Assembly: GCF_003144195.1 (NCBI RefSeq)
Contig: NW_020290011.1
Coordinates: forward strand, 124,001-188,000
Source of the DNA: Ceraceosorus guamensis
Taxonomy: Eukaryota; Basidiomycota; Exobasidiomycetes; Ceraceosorales; Ceraceosoraceae
DNA length: 64,000 nt
Direction: 5' to 3'
The notes below the pieces were generated by a model, which had not been told where the DNA came from, ran no database searches, and saw nothing but the letters and a program-made list of their open reading frames with translations. Positions within the stretch are counted from its first letter, which is position 1; every line of letters starts with the position of its first letter. Shown one piece after another: positions 5,571 to 27,300 of this stretch. The position numbers were made by a program, and so were the translations under genes.

Positions 5571-5825
5571 CACGTGTATATCACGTGATCCAGCTTGCCT
5601 GAATCTGTAGAAGGTTCTCGATGTTGAGCTCGTCTATCTGCCGGCACCGCGCGGCGGGGCGCATGGGACGGCGTGACAGATTCCAGAAGGTGCTACAAGC
5701 TCCTCCACTTTGCTCGTGACTTCCAGAGCCACCAATGCAGTCACCTGCTGTGGAACTTGCATGCGCCCGCCAGTCGCGAGTCGTGAGTGTTGGACTCCGT
5801 CCCGCGACGGCCTCGCCTATATTTA
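5571..5825 (+). promoter_or_regulatory. HSP104 promoter: CACGTG pair, heat-shock-element-like sites and TATA box
   Basis: Within the divergent DUF2237/HSP104 intergenic region (5128-5968), two CACGTG boxes lie at 5571-5576 and 5582-5587, the second inside ATCACGTGAT. Inverted nGAAn/nTTCn pairs typical of heat-shock-factor sites occur at 5610-5617 (GAAGGTTC) and 5681-5688 (TTCCAGAA). A TATA-like TATATTTA is at 5818-5825, about 145 bases before the start codon. A GATTCACGATTCGTGATT patch lies farther upstream at 5366-5383. Assignment is by motif match only. It fits a heat-induced chaperone gene, but sites of two units are short and could occur by chance. Confidence 0.55.
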
Positions 5826-5968
5826 CCCCCCACCACCCTTGGCCATCCAAGGATGCCCGCACCGTCACCATCAGCGCACCAGACCGTACCATATCAGATC
5901 CACGCACAGCAGCCTACAGCAACGGTCCCATCCACACGCTCGCAAACACACCCCACAAAGCCACTCGC

Positions 5969-8725
5969 ATGGAGTTCACAGATCGAGCTCAAGCAGCCGT
6001 CGGTGCTGCACTGCAGCTGGCCAAGGACTTTGCTCACCCCCAAGTACGGCCTGAGCATCTGGCGCTAGCATTTCTGAACGACGATGCTCGCGGCACATCC
6101 GCTGGCGCTCTAAACACCTTTGAGCCATCGCGTCCCTCCACGCCATCCAGCAACAAGCCCAACGCATCCGAGTCCCTCTTCCGAAGCGTATTGGGCAAAG
6201 CAGGCGTAGACGCTTCCAGATTCGAATTCAGCCTTCGAAATGCGCTCAAAAAGATTGCCAGCCAGAATCCAGCGCCGGATGAGGTGGGCTTGGCTGGGAG
6301 TACGAGCAGAATCTTAAAGGAAGCGGATCATCTCAAGACGCAGCAACACGACTCTTTCATCGCCGCGGATCACATCTTGCTGGCGCTGCTCACTGATAGC
6401 AGCACCGTCAAGCTTCTCAAAGAGGCTGGTCTTGCAAACGAAAATCTCCTCAAGACTGCCATCACTCAAAGCAGAGGACAGCGCAGGGTGGACTCTCGCG
6501 CCGCTGATGATGGCTTGGCAGATGCGGTCAGCAAGTACTGCGTGGATCTCACCGCTCTTGCGTCCGAGGGCAAGCTGGACCCAGTGATCGGTCGAGATGA
6601 AGCGATCCGAAGAGTCATTCGAATTCTTTCGCAAAGAAGAAAGGCTAATGCCGTGCTCGTAGGACCTCCAGGAACGGGAAAGACGGCTATTTGCGAAGGA
6701 TTGGCTCAAAGAGTCATCGATAACGATGTGCCTCCTCAATTGCAGACCAAGGTTCTCTCTCTCGATCTTGCTGCACTTGTCGCCGGCGCATCTTACAAGG
6801 GTCAATTTGAGGAGCGTTGGAAAGCGCTTCTTACGGAACTCGAAAAGATGGCCGACAACGGCAAGGCTCCGATCCTCTTCATCGACGAGGTGCACCTGCT
6901 CGTAGCTGGAGGAGGCAACGGATCCACGGACGGCGGCAATCTGCTCAAACCCAGCCTTGCTCGTGGCAAGCTGCGCGTCGTAGCAGCCACGACGCCCTCC
7001 GAGTACCGCACAACAATCGAAAAGGACGGAGCTTTGGATCGTCGTTTCCAGATGGTCAATGTGGACGAGCCGAACGAGGAGGAGACCATCGCCATCATGA
7101 GAGGGCTTCGAGAACGCTACGAGAATCATCACGGACTTCGCATCCTCGACTCGGCGCTCGTAGCGGCTGCCAAGCTGGCCAGACGATATTTGAGCGGTCG
7201 CAAATGTCCCGACTCTGCCATCGACTTGCTGGACGAAGCTTGCGCGGAAGTGAGGGTCAGCAGAGAAACGCTGCCGCCCGAGATCGACTCGTTGCAGAGA
7301 GAGGTGGTGAGACTGGAAGTCGCTATACATGCGTTGGAGCGCGAAAAGGACGACGCGAGCAAAGAGGCGCTGGAGCATACTCGCAAGCAATTGGCCGTCA
7401 TCAAGGAGACGCTGGCGCCCAAGATGGCGGCGTACGAGGCGGAAAAGGAGCAAGCTGAAAGACTGTCCAACGCTCGTAGACGCTTGGAAGAGCTTCGACA
7501 AAAGGCGGAAAAGGCTCAGAGGATGATGGATGTCGCTACCGCTTCCGATCTGACGTATGGTGCCATACCCGATTTGGAGGCCAGGATCGCGGAGTTGGAA
7601 GCGGAAGAGAAAAGGAAGGCGGAAAGAGGAGAGTCGGACAAGGGAACTGTTGGACCTGAACAGATTGCCGCTACGGTAGCGCGCTGGACGGGCATTCCCG
7701 TCGCTTCCATGCTCGAGTCTGAGCGCGACAAGGTTCTGCAGTTGCCCAAGCTGCTGAAGAAGGAGGTGATTGGTCAGCCGGAAGCTACGAATGCGATCGC
7801 CAAGGCTATCCAGCTGCAAAGAGCAGGACTGGCAAACCCCAACTCTCCGCCCAGCTTCTTGTTCTGCGGACCCTCTGGAGCGGGCAAGACGCTGTGCGCC
7901 AAGACGTTGGCCAAGATCCTCTTTGGAACGTCGGATGCGCTCATCAGGATCGATGCGTCCGAGTACAGCGAGCGACACTCCATCAGCCGACTTTTGGGCG
8001 CTCCACCGGGATACGTGGGCTACGAGCAAGGAGGTGCGCTAGAAGCTGTGCGAAGAAAACCTTATAGCGTCATTTTGGTGGACGAGTTGGAAAAGGCGGC
8101 AAGGGAATTCCACATGACCTTCTTGCAGGCGCTGGATGATGGACGCTTGACGGATGGACAAGGAAGGGTGATCGATCTGAGGAACTCCATCATCATCTTC
8201 ACCTCCAACCTCGGCTCGGCCTTCATTTCCGACAATGAAACGACGCTGGACAATGGCAAGATTGCACCGGCTACGAGACAACTGGTCGAGGGCGCCATTG
8301 CCGCTGCTCTGCCTCCGGAGCTCAGAAACAGGTTCAGCGCTACTGTTCTCTTCAGACCCTTGTCGCGCAAAGACGTGCGAAACATTATCGATTTGCGCAT
8401 CGAGGAGGTTCACGCTCGCATTCGATCCAACGGCAAGCAGATAAGATTGGTCCTTTCGGAGGAAGCAAAGGATGTGCTTGCGAAGCTGGGATACAATCCA
8501 CAAATGGGAGCTCGACCCCTGACGAGGGTCATCACGAACGAAATTCTCAGTCCTCTGAGCGTCCTGATGCTTAGAGGAGCCGTGCTGGACAAGGAAGAGG
8601 TCAGAGTGGATGCCGATGTGGCAAAGGATAGGCTCGTTGTGAGAGCTAATCACGAGGCCAACGAGATGGAGGTGGACGATGAGGAGGATGGAGAGAGCTA
8701 TCTTATGGCAGAGGAGGTCGACTAG
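5969..8725 (+). CDS. HSP104: Hsp104/ClpB protein disaggregase, intronless, C-terminal EEVD
   Basis: A single exon of 918 codons, close to the roughly 908 residues of yeast Hsp104. The hexameric AAA+ machine threads aggregated proteins through its pore together with Hsp70 in the cytosol. Visible parts in order: Clp N-terminal repeats (TDRAQAAVGAALQLA, AADHILLALL); NBD1 with Walker A GPPGTGKT at residues 232-239 and Walker B ILFIDEVH; the coiled-coil middle domain (about 400-540, rich in Glu, Lys and Arg); NBD2 with Walker A GPSGAGKT at about 634, Walker B VILVDELEKA and GYVGYEQGG pore loop; then the C-terminal domain (MGARPLTRVI). The start is chosen because residues from MEFTDRAQ align with the family and a TATA box lies just upstream; an in-frame ATG at 5735 precedes that TATA. 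Absence of introns suits expression under heat, when splicing is blocked. The acidic tail ends EEVD, unlike the DDLD-type end of yeast Hsp104. Confidence 0.97.
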   Translation: MEFTDRAQAAVGAALQLAKDFAHPQVRPEHLALAFLNDDARGTSAGALNTFEPSRPSTPSSNKPNASESLFRSVLGKAGVDASRFEFSLRNALKKIASQNPAPDEVGLAGSTSRILKEADHLKTQQHDSFIAADHILLALLTDSSTVKLLKEAGLANENLLKTAITQSRGQRRVDSRAADDGLADAVSKYCVDLTALASEGKLDPVIGRDEAIRRVIRILSQRRKANAVLVGPPGTGKTAICEGLAQRVIDNDVPPQLQTKVLSLDLAALVAGASYKGQFEERWKALLTELEKMADNGKAPILFIDEVHLLVAGGGNGSTDGGNLLKPSLARGKLRVVAATTPSEYRTTIEKDGALDRRFQMVNVDEPNEEETIAIMRGLRERYENHHGLRILDSALVAAAKLARRYLSGRKCPDSAIDLLDEACAEVRVSRETLPPEIDSLQREVVRLEVAIHALEREKDDASKEALEHTRKQLAVIKETLAPKMAAYEAEKEQAERLSNARRRLEELRQKAEKAQRMMDVATASDLTYGAIPDLEARIAELEAEEKRKAERGESDKGTVGPEQIAATVARWTGIPVASMLESERDKVLQLPKLLKKEVIGQPEATNAIAKAIQLQRAGLANPNSPPSFLFCGPSGAGKTLCAKTLAKILFGTSDALIRIDASEYSERHSISRLLGAPPGYVGYEQGGALEAVRRKPYSVILVDELEKAAREFHMTFLQALDDGRLTDGQGRVIDLRNSIIIFTSNLGSAFISDNETTLDNGKIAPATRQLVEGAIAAALPPELRNRFSATVLFRPLSRKDVRNIIDLRIEEVHARIRSNGKQIRLVLSEEAKDVLAKLGYNPQMGARPLTRVITNEILSPLSVLMLRGAVLDKEEVRVDADVAKDRLVVRANHEANEMEVDDEEDGESYLMAEEVD

Positions 8726-22016: not shown

Positions 22017-24036
22017 ATGTCAGCGCCAGGTTCCTCCATCGATCCCTCTAGCTACTCAGTGCTAGGTCTAACGCACGTACAGTACAACCAGCACGATCCC
22101 TTTGCCAAAGCGCTAGCTCTGATAACCCTCAGTCCCATATTCTTGCTATGCTCCTACGTCACCATCATTCTCTACAGAAGGGAGTTGACATTCATCAATG
22201 CGCTTATTGGGCAGTTGGGATGCGAGGGAGTCAACTGGGGCTTGAAGAGGTTGATCAGGCAGCCTAGACCTACTGGTAAGTTGCGAGCAGCATCCGCAAC
22301 AAGGAGTCCGGCAAGTCACACGGTATGCTAGCTGGCATGGCGCTCATCACGCGCCTCTGTCCTCACTCCACCTCTGATTCACAATGCTGGTCCAGGTAAC
22401 CTAGGCTCAGGTTACGGCATGCCCTCTTCTCACGCCCAATTCGTCGGTTTCTTTGCTGCCTACTTTTTGGCCCACTTTGCTCTGCATCATCCCAAAGCTG
22501 CCAGACCTGCGACGCTTGTCAACACCATGCGAAGGTTCGAGCACGCTGTAGCCATGTTGGCCATCGCGAGCTGCGCCGCCATCACCGCATACAGCCGGTG
22601 AGTCGCTTGCTCATGCGTCTAACAATGATCGCTTTGGCGATGTACCGGGTCGTATCTCAGATGCTCAGCGAAATAAGTCTCGTGTCCCTCTCAGATATCA
22701 TCTTTCCTATCATACGGCAGCACAGATCTGGGTAGGCCTTTCACTAGGAATAGCCATCGGCTCCACATGGTATTACATAGCAGAGTACCTGCCCCGCAAG
22801 CCTCTCAGATTGCCCATCCCTCTAGGCTCGCCTCATCAATCACCAGCCACCGGTGATCCGAAAAGCAGAACATCTGCGCGGGTCGAGGCTGAGAGAACAA
22901 AGCTTGGCTCTCCTCTCGAGCTTCGACAAAGGCTGCGCAAGTCGATCAGCGCTAAGGAACAAGAGATCGCTCATGCTAGTAATCAGGTACCCACAACCTC
23001 GCCAGACCAAAAGCGCGCAAGACGTCGATCATCCCTCTCTTCCTTCTTACCGGAGCTTCATCCCGCTCCTCCGCTACGTCAGTTGATCCTGGACCATCCC
23101 ATCGCGGTAGCTTTTCGAATCAGGGATTCGTGGACTGTATGGCTGGACGGAGGCATCGAGCAAGAGTACGGTCGATGGCGGGACGAATGGTTGGACAGGC
23201 GAACCGAGTGGAGGCAAGACGATGCGCTCGCAGATTCACCCATCGATCAACGCTTGAGCGATTTGCCGCTTCTCGAGCGACGTGCCTTTCCCAACAAGGA
23301 TGATACAGGTGGAGAAGCATGGACGTCAAAGCAAGACGAGATTCATTACAGACGTTTGCTGAAAACGCTAGCATTAGCGGATCTTTGCGTTGCCAACCAG
23401 ACCGCTTTTTGCGTAGGATGCGTCGTCAGTCCTTCGCGCGCGTCTTCTGCGCAAGGGGAGCAAATACTAGCTACGGGCTACTCCCGGGAACTTCCGGGCA
23501 ACACGCACGCTGAAGAATGTGCATTGCAAAAGTTGCTGCTTTTGCGAGATTCGTCGATGGCTGCGTTTGAGCCCGAGACGATTTGGTTGGATCTGTACAC
23601 TAGTATGGAACCGTGTTCTGTACGAGGATCTGGCAACACCAGCTGCGTATCTCGCATCCTCTCATTCAACACCTCCTCCATCTCATCCGCCTCCACCTCG
23701 CCTTCCCCTTCCTCCGGAGGAGGCGGTGCTGCATCATCTGCAAAACGCGCGGGCACGGGCATGGGCACGGGCAAGGGCGCGCGCGCTTGCTACCAGATAT
23801 CCCGCGTGTTCATGGGGGTCAAAGAACCGCAAGATTTCGTGCAGTGCGAAGGCGTTCGCATGTTGAGAGAGGCGGGCGTGCAGGTCATCAGCGTCCTGCC
23901 ACCTGAGAGAGAGACGAGCAGGTTGGGATTGAAACATGGTTGGTTGGAGAGGGAAGCGCTCAGGATTGCCAAGAAGAGCCACCTGGACCAAGCCGGGTCT
24001 GAAGGTGCCGAGGTCGCGTGGAAAGGTCTTGCTTGA
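22017..24036 (+). CDS. CAX4/RIB2: Dolichyl-diphosphatase fused to Rib2-type pyrimidine deaminase
   Basis: Three exons, 22017-22275, 22396-22597 and 22695-24036, give 600 residues with two domains. Residues 1 to about 200 match dolichyl-diphosphatase (Cax4/DOLPP1), a multi-pass ER enzyme that recycles dolichyl-PP. It has PAP2 motifs KRLIRQPRP (77-85), PSSHAQ (96-101) and SRYHLSYH (153-160), hydrophobic segments, and an IRDSW block near the usual end. The same frame then runs on, with no stop, into a zinc deaminase of the DRAP type (C-terminal half of fungal Rib2, riboflavin step): GYSRELPGNTHAEECAL with H425 and E427, MEPCSVRGSGNTSC with C461 and C471, then VFMGVKEPQDFV. Spacing equals that of fungal Rib2. 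No in-frame ATG lies between exon 3's start and the zinc site, so the deaminase has no start of its own. Residues about 200-330 form a charged linker. Convergent with URC1. Confidence 0.9.
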
Positions 24037-24382: not shown

Positions 24383-27300
24383 TCAATGCGCAACATCTTC
24401 CCAACCGCGTCCAACGACCTTTTCCAATGGCTTGTCGTGCTCTCGTGCCGAAAAGTATCCGGCAAAGACCTGTTGCGAAGTGCGGGTACCGGGTGAGATG
24501 GTGGCACGATTGCCCTCTCTCCACCCCTCAAGAAAACCAAGCAGATAGGTCAACAGGCCCAACTCACCTTGGCTTCGATTTCCACTTGACTGTCTGCCGG
24601 GATCAATTCGGGCGGGATCTCGTAGCGCTATTACCGGGCGCACGAACACGCAATAGATGCATCAGTATCCATTCGGGATGCTAGAGGCGAGGCGCTGAGC
24701 GTGACTCGCCTTGTGGATCGGGATACCACTATTTACGATGGCGTCGTGCTTGAGGTTGGACATGGACTAGTGTGCGATCCGCAATGATGAAAAGGCGTCA
24801 AACAATCGCGCACGGCTTCGCAAGTAACAAGAGCACCAATACTCACGATCATATTGTCTATCTTGGTGATGCCGAGCCAGTGCAAAATATCCGGCGTGCC
24901 GAGAGACTGGAATCGCATGTCTAGACGCAAAGAAGAGTTTCCCCAAGAGTCAGCTTGCTCTTGCGTAGACGTGCTCTTACATAGACCTTTCGAGCGTCGG
25001 TGCGACGGCCCTGCAACAGCCCAGCACTGACCTTCAACACCAGCAATGACCTCGGTGCGCTTGAAATAATTGTGGGCAGAATCGACGCCGCGCTTTCGCG
25101 CATTGTAGACCAGGTACTTCGTCACTTCGCCCAGCGCTCTTCCTTCTTTGCGGAAGTCTGAGAGTGAGCCGCGGGGGGAAGCGGAAAGGGTGCAAGAGTG
25201 AGGCGGATCCGGAAGGTGCAGCTACACGCAGCAACCCGCGAGAAACGCATGACGCACATACGATCACGCCACTGCCTCCTCTCTGCGCACACTTGATGGC
25301 TTCTTCGATACCGTACTGCAAAGTTTGGTCGGTCGAGCGAGGCACAGAATCTGGTCAGGTATGCAGAGGCAAGAGCGGTGCGCCCATATTTGCTCACAAT
25401 CAAGTACGGTCGACCTGGCGTGGGAACGAATCAGCCTGGTGAGCACCGTTTGCGTGCAGCAATCATACGATCTTACTCACACGTGCAAATATCCGAGCCA
25501 AAAACATCCGAGCCGTTGCACTCGTCGTGAACGCGCACGGTGACCTCTTTGGTAGGATCGCGCATGTACTCTGGCTGGAAGCGAAGCTCAAGGTGGGGTA
25601 AGGGCAGTGTCCTGGCAGTTCATGCCAGGATTGCGACACTCACGGGTCCGAAAATGTAGACTGTGAGACCGCTAATGGGCGGCAAGAAGAGCGAGAGGTC
25701 TGATCGAGTGAGGAGCTGGTGCGAAGAGTCAGGAGCGAAAGGGTCAGAATACGAGCCAGGGTGGACATGGTATGCATGGTTTGGCGTTCAAACCCACCTC
25801 GGGATACATTCCACCGGTGTCCTCAAACAGCGCGCGTCGAAGCAGCCCCTCAGGCACTCCGAGCCTCTCCGCCACACCCGGCAAGCTAAGTTTCAGCACT
25901 ACGAGTCAGCGACAGCTCCGACAACGAGCAACATTGCTTTTCGGCGACTTTGTCCTCTACTCACAACCACACCGGCTCAACTGCAGCCTTGCTGCAGTTA
26001 ATTTCCACACCCGGGTTAGATCCGGGCTCGGTCCCGGGTAATCTGTCGCTGGTCACGACGATCCTGCCGTCCAAAGGTACCCGACCGGCGAGAACAGCAG
26101 CGTCCAGCTCTGCCATCTTTATATGCGCTCGAGTGAGTGAGCTTGTAGGTCTGACATCGATGCCCGCATTAAAATGGGATTTGAAGCTACGAGAAGCGGA
26201 TTGGGCAAGCCGTGAGTCATGGACCGGGCACACAACTTTGAATCATTCGGGCAACTGACAGAGTGGGCGCCAAGTGCCCGAATGGATCCAGCGTGACGAT
26301 CTTTTTGGGATCGAACCAGGCAGGGTTGGGGGGAATATCAAACGGTCTGTGAGAGAGAGAAAAGATCTCAGAAAACCGGGGCTGTCTTATCGCTGCTAGC
26401 CAGGCATGCGGCTCTTACGGTTGTGTGTCTGTGTAGTTTGGTCGATGGTTCGGATTCAGCTTGCCTTGGCTGAAAGTGGCGCGAATGCATCAGCTGGTCA
26501 GCTGCTCAACGACGCTCAATACCCTGTACCCACGCAATGGCCAATGCTCTATAGACCGAGTAGAATCCTCCATATGCGCCAATAGCATTTCTGACCTTTA
26601 TCCTGTTCCCCCGACGCCCGACGCCCGATAAATTTGAAAATTGGTTGAGCTATTTAACGCGAGCCCAAGCACTTTGCTGCCAAGATCGACTCACGAATTG
26701 GGATGACGGCTCGCTACGATGACGCCACGCTGTTGCGGATCTTGAGCACCCCAAACCAGGGGCAAAGGTTTGATACCGCTCTGACCGGGGTAGGTGGAGA
26801 GGATGACTGTGTGCGTCGAGAGAACCGAAGACGCGAGGTCAGCCATGATGGCGTCTCTGCAAATTTCTGTAACGAGATCTGTCCCGGCAAAGTGAAGCGA
26901 CCCCGCAAGCGCCATCGAACGCTTACTCACCTCTATCGGAGTAATAGCCTTCGGTTGGGTTCTTTTTGAGTGCAGAAATACCAATCTCGTGGCTGCTGGC
27001 TACAGGCGCAGCAGGGACAGGAACGGCAGGTGGTCCGAGAGGCTGAGCAGGTGGAGAGCTACCTAGCAGGGCCGCAGAGTCTTTGGCATTTGCAGGCACA
27101 GCATTCGAAGCGGCTGACCCGATAGCTCGGTGCAAAGGAGACAATCCACCACCTGACGAACGTCGTGTATGCGCCGCAAAGGAAGATGGAGAAGCGACGT
27201 TCGACAAGGTTGCTGCACCATGCAGCGCGTCCACCTGAGTGCAAAAACAGCGATGCTCTCCGTCATGTTAGTGCGCGGCCCACTGACACGACGTTGGCTG

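Follow-up and report, generated by a model that had tools for sequence, protein, structure and literature searches.

A putative fusion of a Cax4/DOLPP1-type phosphatase and a Rib2-type deaminase in one reading frame of Ceraceosorus guamensis

Background

Within the stretch of Ceraceosorus guamensis DNA analysed here (64,000 nt, hereafter the window), domains of two enzymes from unrelated pathways, a Cax4/DOLPP1-type PAP2 phosphatase and a Rib2-type zinc deaminase, follow each other in one reading frame. This raises the question of whether the locus is one gene for one bifunctional protein or whether two products, or even two genes, are hidden in it. The reading that we favour, with a probability of about 75%, is that a single gene would encode a single phosphatase-deaminase protein of 600 residues. 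The locus probably represents a real and new domain fusion of two known and individually ordinary enzymes, the pairing itself being what is unusual. Open-access searches returned no published account of a Cax4/DOLPP1-Rib2 fusion, which agrees with the original prediction that this is not a described arrangement, although such searches are weak evidence of absence and unannotated examples may exist in the databases.

Results

Gene model and domain content

Judging by the spliced genes that it contains, the window appears eukaryotic. The spliced gene lies on the + strand, as do all of its features given below, and consists of three exons (22017-22275, 22396-22597, and 22695-24036) with a total length of 1803 nt, i.e., 600 codons and a stop. 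The start ATG is located at 22017 and the stop codon ends at 24036. Exon 1 encodes the N-terminus, the two first membrane helices (placed by hand), and PAP2 motif 1, exon 2 contains motif 2 and the beginning of motif 3, and exon 3 comprises the rest of motif 3, the final membrane helix, the linker, the entire deaminase, and the stop codon. Both GT-AG introns are required to keep the frame, and both have strong donors and end in CAG: intron 1 (22276-22395, 120 nt) reads GTAAGT...CAG, and intron 2 (22598-22694, 97 nt), which interrupts codon R154 within motif 3, reads GTGAGT...CAG.

According to Pfam, the one spliced protein contains PAP2 (4.9e-8), Inv-AAD (2.6e-25), and dCMP_cyt_deam_1 (1.7e-6), with the phosphatase occupying residues 1-185 and the deaminase about residues 371-570. 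The spliced frame has no stop codon between the two halves. Methionines are found at positions 1, 95, 131, and 140, and then only at 442, which is inside the deaminase core and past its HAE motif; likewise, no in-frame ATG is present from 22696 to 23500. Re-reading of the DNA thus confirmed the single frame, the coordinates, and the residue numbers of the phosphatase motifs and the zinc site given in the original prediction, together with its claim that neither a stop separates the halves nor an in-frame ATG could serve the deaminase alone. A pseudouridine synthase domain, the partner of yeast-type Rib2, is absent from the 600-aa protein (Pfam, E up to 0.01), and no second copy of RIB2 or CAX4 was detected inside the window (tblastn, E up to 1).

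The phosphatase half

PAP2 phosphatases share the motif patterns K-x6-RP, PSxH, and SR-x5-H, and all three are present here (K77-x6-RP, PSSH at 96, and SR153-x5-H160). Over residues 84-185 the Pfam PAP2 model scores 33.2 bits, above its cut-off of 27.2. Regarding the family, for which the comparison took in Cax4/DOLPP1 alone, a BLASTP alignment with a provisional version of S. cerevisiae Cax4 spans residues 1 to 183; 60 of its 194 columns are identical (31%), its E-value is 5e-26, and none of 1000 shuffles equals its score. Solved PAP2 structures gave no match in the PDB sequence search at E up to 0.1. These values support, at the level of sequence, the assignment of the N-terminal half to the Cax4/DOLPP1 dolichyl-diphosphatase family.

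The C-terminal end of this half is less distinct. Residues 271-325 (23044..23208) may correspond to a DOLPP1 C-terminal tail, since residues 271-335 match a provisional vertebrate DOLPP1 tail weakly (58 of 2000 shuffles are as good). For the wider stretch 181-335 the fraction is 149 of 2000, and the tail does not match that of the provisional yeast Cax4 (940 of 1000). Of the complete Cax4/DOLPP1 domain that had been proposed, only residues 1-185 are firm; support for the DOLPP1 tail, at about 280-325, is weak.

One gene or two

Between the final membrane helix and the deaminase lie a K/R- and S-rich stretch (residues 186-270, 22789..23043), the possible tail, and a junction linker (residues 326-369, 23209..23340). 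The linker as a whole (residues 191-369) is long and charged, and the deaminase might also, or only, be made alone from the same locus, with nothing tethered to the ER, by means of an internal promoter and a non-ATG start, alternative splicing, or cleavage in the K/R-rich linker. At permissive splice thresholds, 31 models with one intron can be drawn in which an ATG further upstream is spliced into the frame of the deaminase; the set covers introns of at most 250 nt and ATG starts. However, the best 12 of the 31 begin in phosphatase intron 2 and share a weak donor at 22732, which falls within the coding sequence of the last membrane helix, and the gap in methionines between residues 140 and 442 leaves the deaminase without an ATG of its own. 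We consider such a two-product locus unlikely.

A still less probable explanation is that two adjacent genes were joined by an assembly error, or that a missed intron holds the end of the first gene and the start of the second. The locus is known from a single sequence without reads, and the junction alone (57 codons, 23170-23340) is open by chance in 18% of simulations. The longer interval 22810-23340, however, is open in just 0.42% of 5000 simulations with first-order composition, and exon 3 is open throughout in none of 2000 Markov-1 simulations; ambiguous bases are absent. Moreover, a 3' end, a promoter, and a 5' end would find little space in the approximately 135 nt that separate the deaminase from the possible DOLPP1 tail.

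Codon usage, a weak measure of coding that was trained here on a few stop-to-stop frames of the window rather than on curated genes, gives a mixed picture. Twenty windows of 180 nt were scored along exon 3. The gene frame outscores the other five in 16 of them, among these all 11 that start from 22696 to 23296, a result partly due to stops in the other frames; in the remaining 4 an antisense frame scores highest. In the deaminase core the gene frame scores lower than the antisense frame (0.00 vs 0.05). For the comparison of segments, stops were set neutral. The 44 codons preceding the deaminase (residues 326-369) are coding-like, which speaks against a junction of two genes: their score is reached by 19 of 1605 off-frame segments, and 161 of 321 in-frame segments lie at or below it. 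For residues 191-270 the corresponding counts, 196 of 1511 and 8 of 303, are equivocal, so that a missed intron could lie there. The linker taken whole (191-369) falls in between, with 36 of 1267 and 5 of 255.

Candidate introns of 40-250 nt with starts at 22700-24000 were ranked with a hand-made splice score. On this scale the real introns reach 9.2 and 7.3, against 5.3 for the top-ranking candidate in exon 3; thus, none of the exon 3 candidates tested comes near the real introns. The sole frame-keeping linker candidate among those listed (22853-23005, score 2.8) would shorten the linker and leave the fusion intact. Overall, one fused reading frame appears to be by far the simplest account of the locus. 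The predicted fusion stands with respect to the single open frame, both families, and the catalytic and substrate-contact residues, from which we infer a single mature polypeptide with both activities at the ER.

The deaminase half

The Rib2-type deaminase and the C-terminal end of the protein occupy residues 371-600 (23344..24033). The zinc motif described for Rib2 deaminases in PMC8256712, HxE followed by PC-x8-9-C, is found as H425-A-E427 (HAE at 425-427) and P460-C461-x9-C471. In the PDB, matches at E up to 0.1 comprise two distinct sequences, one of entries 7drz, 7ds0, and 7ds1 and the other of 7dry, the best being 7drz with E 1.5e-15; all four entries are structures of A. oryzae Rib2 reported in that paper (PMC8256712).

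According to the same source, nine AoRib2 side chains serve as zinc ligands, in catalysis, or in contacts with DARIPP (T53, N59, H61, E63, C102, R105, S107, C112, and E136; PMC8256712). By alignment, their partners are S417, N423, H425, E427, C461, R464, S466, C471, and E531, respectively, so that 8 of 9 are identical and the sole change is Thr53 to Ser417. For the DARIPP-contact set (T53, N59, R105, S107, and E136) the count is 4 of 5. Four further residues of AoRib2 make backbone contacts; three of them (F26, A62, and E100) are conserved in the alignment, and Gly takes the place of L106. E136 and E531 are paired in the second segment of the HMMER alignment, weak when taken alone (i-Evalue 2), in which the surrounding GVKEP is identical. 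R105, which binds the DARIPP phosphate, and E136, which binds the ribitol, are contrasted with bacterial RibG (PMC8256712); as both equivalents are identical in the alignment, the residues that set AoRib2 apart there are present in the fused deaminase.

Between the zinc cysteines and E531, the deaminase carries a Ser/Gly-rich low-complexity insert (residues 481-515, 23674..23778). The corresponding segment of A. oryzae Rib2 is just about 8 residues long, and two Streptomyces proteins are gapped at this site. AlphaFold runs without alignment on two contiguous pieces of the window yielded mean pLDDT values of 32.0 and 38.7, i.e., unusable models.

Sequence comparison therefore supports a Rib2-type deaminase as the C-terminal half, and the earlier assignment is upheld in a more specific form, as Rib2-like, by the A. 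oryzae Rib2 match and the substrate-contact residues. That this half is instead another superfamily member (a tRNA, cytidine, or AID/APOBEC-like deaminase), as the name of the top Pfam model (Invertebrate-AID/APOBEC-deaminase, Inv-AAD) and the sub-threshold RibD match, the only one in NCBIfam (21.8 bits vs 156.35), might suggest, is hardly credible given that A. oryzae Rib2 chains are the only solved relatives found, that R464 and E531 are present, and that Inv-AAD also matches two Streptomyces deaminases, one of them adjoining a RibD_C reductase. An AID/APOBEC-like identity, taken from the Pfam name, was rejected on the Rib2 residues.

Relatives in other collections

A tblastn search with the deaminase over the plasmid collection gave matches in 38 records, of which 36 are from Streptomyces and 2 from Nocardia; none reaches 60% identity. 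Among the matches listed (5 of 38), the lowest E-values belong to two Streptomyces linear plasmids, L001 (1e-9) and L002 (2e-9), whose deaminases both match Inv-AAD. In these two records, the ones examined out of 38, the deaminase gene shares a single base with the end of a gene whose annotation names the dihydrofolate-reductase family (L001:2285-3429 and L002:2291-3435). The reductase-family gene of L001, which alone was scanned, has a RibD_C domain (8e-39), and its score against the archaeal-type riboflavin reductase model is 133.3 bits, under the cut-off of 186.45. As an argument from context, this arrangement favours a riboflavin-type role for the deaminase group; it says nothing on the fusion.

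The Inv-AAD profile, applied to 14 known control genomes, matched in Lactococcus lactis only, a result that has no bearing on yeast. Six short peptide patterns per collection, an insensitive probe, matched 13 stretches in bacterial and archaeal genomes and 3 in viral contigs, and none was confirmed. No relative with the same phosphatase-deaminase fusion was found among the bacterial/archaeal, viral, and plasmid collections.

Discussion

If the locus is expressed as one chain, its N-terminal half would be an ER-membrane dolichyl-diphosphatase of the Cax4/DOLPP1 type, whose active site, as expected from the family, would face the lumen. The chain would then exit into the cytosol after the final membrane helix and continue as a flexible linker to the C-terminal Rib2-type deaminase, which would convert DARIPP to ARIPP in riboflavin synthesis. 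Regarding topology, in the PAP2 superfamily the active-site motifs and the exit of the final helix are on opposite sides of the membrane, and the Cax4 active site faces the ER lumen; the chain after residue 185 should therefore be cytosolic. Charge counts over hand-placed segments partly agree (8 K/R vs 4 D/E in residues 186-230, and 4 vs 1 in the loop 118-136), but the motif-1 loop on the opposite side carries 4 K/R and no D/E as well. Thus, the cytosol-facing deaminase of the original prediction is plausible from the family, and the charges agree with it in part.

As for the origin of the fusion, read-through of two neighbouring co-directed genes would be the most likely route, and it would make coupling of the two pathways unnecessary. 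Gene fusions in fungi are not rare, and hence functional coupling should not be assumed. A more far-reaching version, in which an entire fungal lineage carries the fusion as a fixed trait and has no other RIB2, so that an obligatory riboflavin step is anchored on the cytosolic side of the ER at a level linked to that of the dolichol-recycling enzyme, is doubtful. The interest of the locus would be much greater if the fusion proved to be conserved and the sole RIB2 of its lineage. Even as an isolated case, a single chain would put a vitamin B2 enzyme on the ER by way of a partner from an unrelated pathway, and it would offer a direct test of whether fusions of this kind create a link between pathways or are accidental and harmless.

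In comparison with known systems, a parallel in architecture is S. cerevisiae Rib2, which PMC8256712 describes as a two-enzyme protein with a C-terminal deaminase. The deaminase is C-terminal in both proteins; its partner, however, is a pseudouridine synthase in yeast and would be a multi-pass membrane phosphatase here. Aspergillus oryzae Rib2, of the same deaminase family, is a stand-alone protein of 222 residues (PMC8256712) and has neither a membrane part nor the Ser/Gly insert. S. cerevisiae Cax4/Cwh8 and vertebrate DOLPP1 share the PAP2 core, and they are separate proteins without a deaminase; C. albicans Cwh8 is given as 241 aa in PMC12505894. The Streptomyces plasmid deaminases match the same Pfam models as the fused one, whereas each is a small separate protein encoded in an overlapping gene pair.

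With respect to annotation, a fused gene of this kind could mislead automatic pipelines, and its name may cover just one of the two enzymes. The Rib2-like deaminases of L001 and L002 bear annotation suggesting tRNA editing.

Downstream of the fused gene, a convergent gene of GTP cyclohydrolase II type with several exons occupies 24386-26999 on the − strand. Eight open pieces of this interval were scanned: GTP_CH_N (PF12471) was found in 4 (three above the cut-off and one equal to it as printed), GTP_cyclohydro2 (PF00925) in 1, just below the cut-off, and 3 had no match. We take the product to be a URC1-like protein, for which an open-access search returned no paper, and not the riboflavin enzyme Rib1, and its position next to a Rib2 domain is perhaps a coincidence. 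No tRNA genes were found in the window. Elsewhere in the window, an open frame of 574 codons (6314-8038, − strand) lies opposite a ClpB/Hsp104-like frame (5720-8725, + strand) and is probably a shadow of its codon usage.
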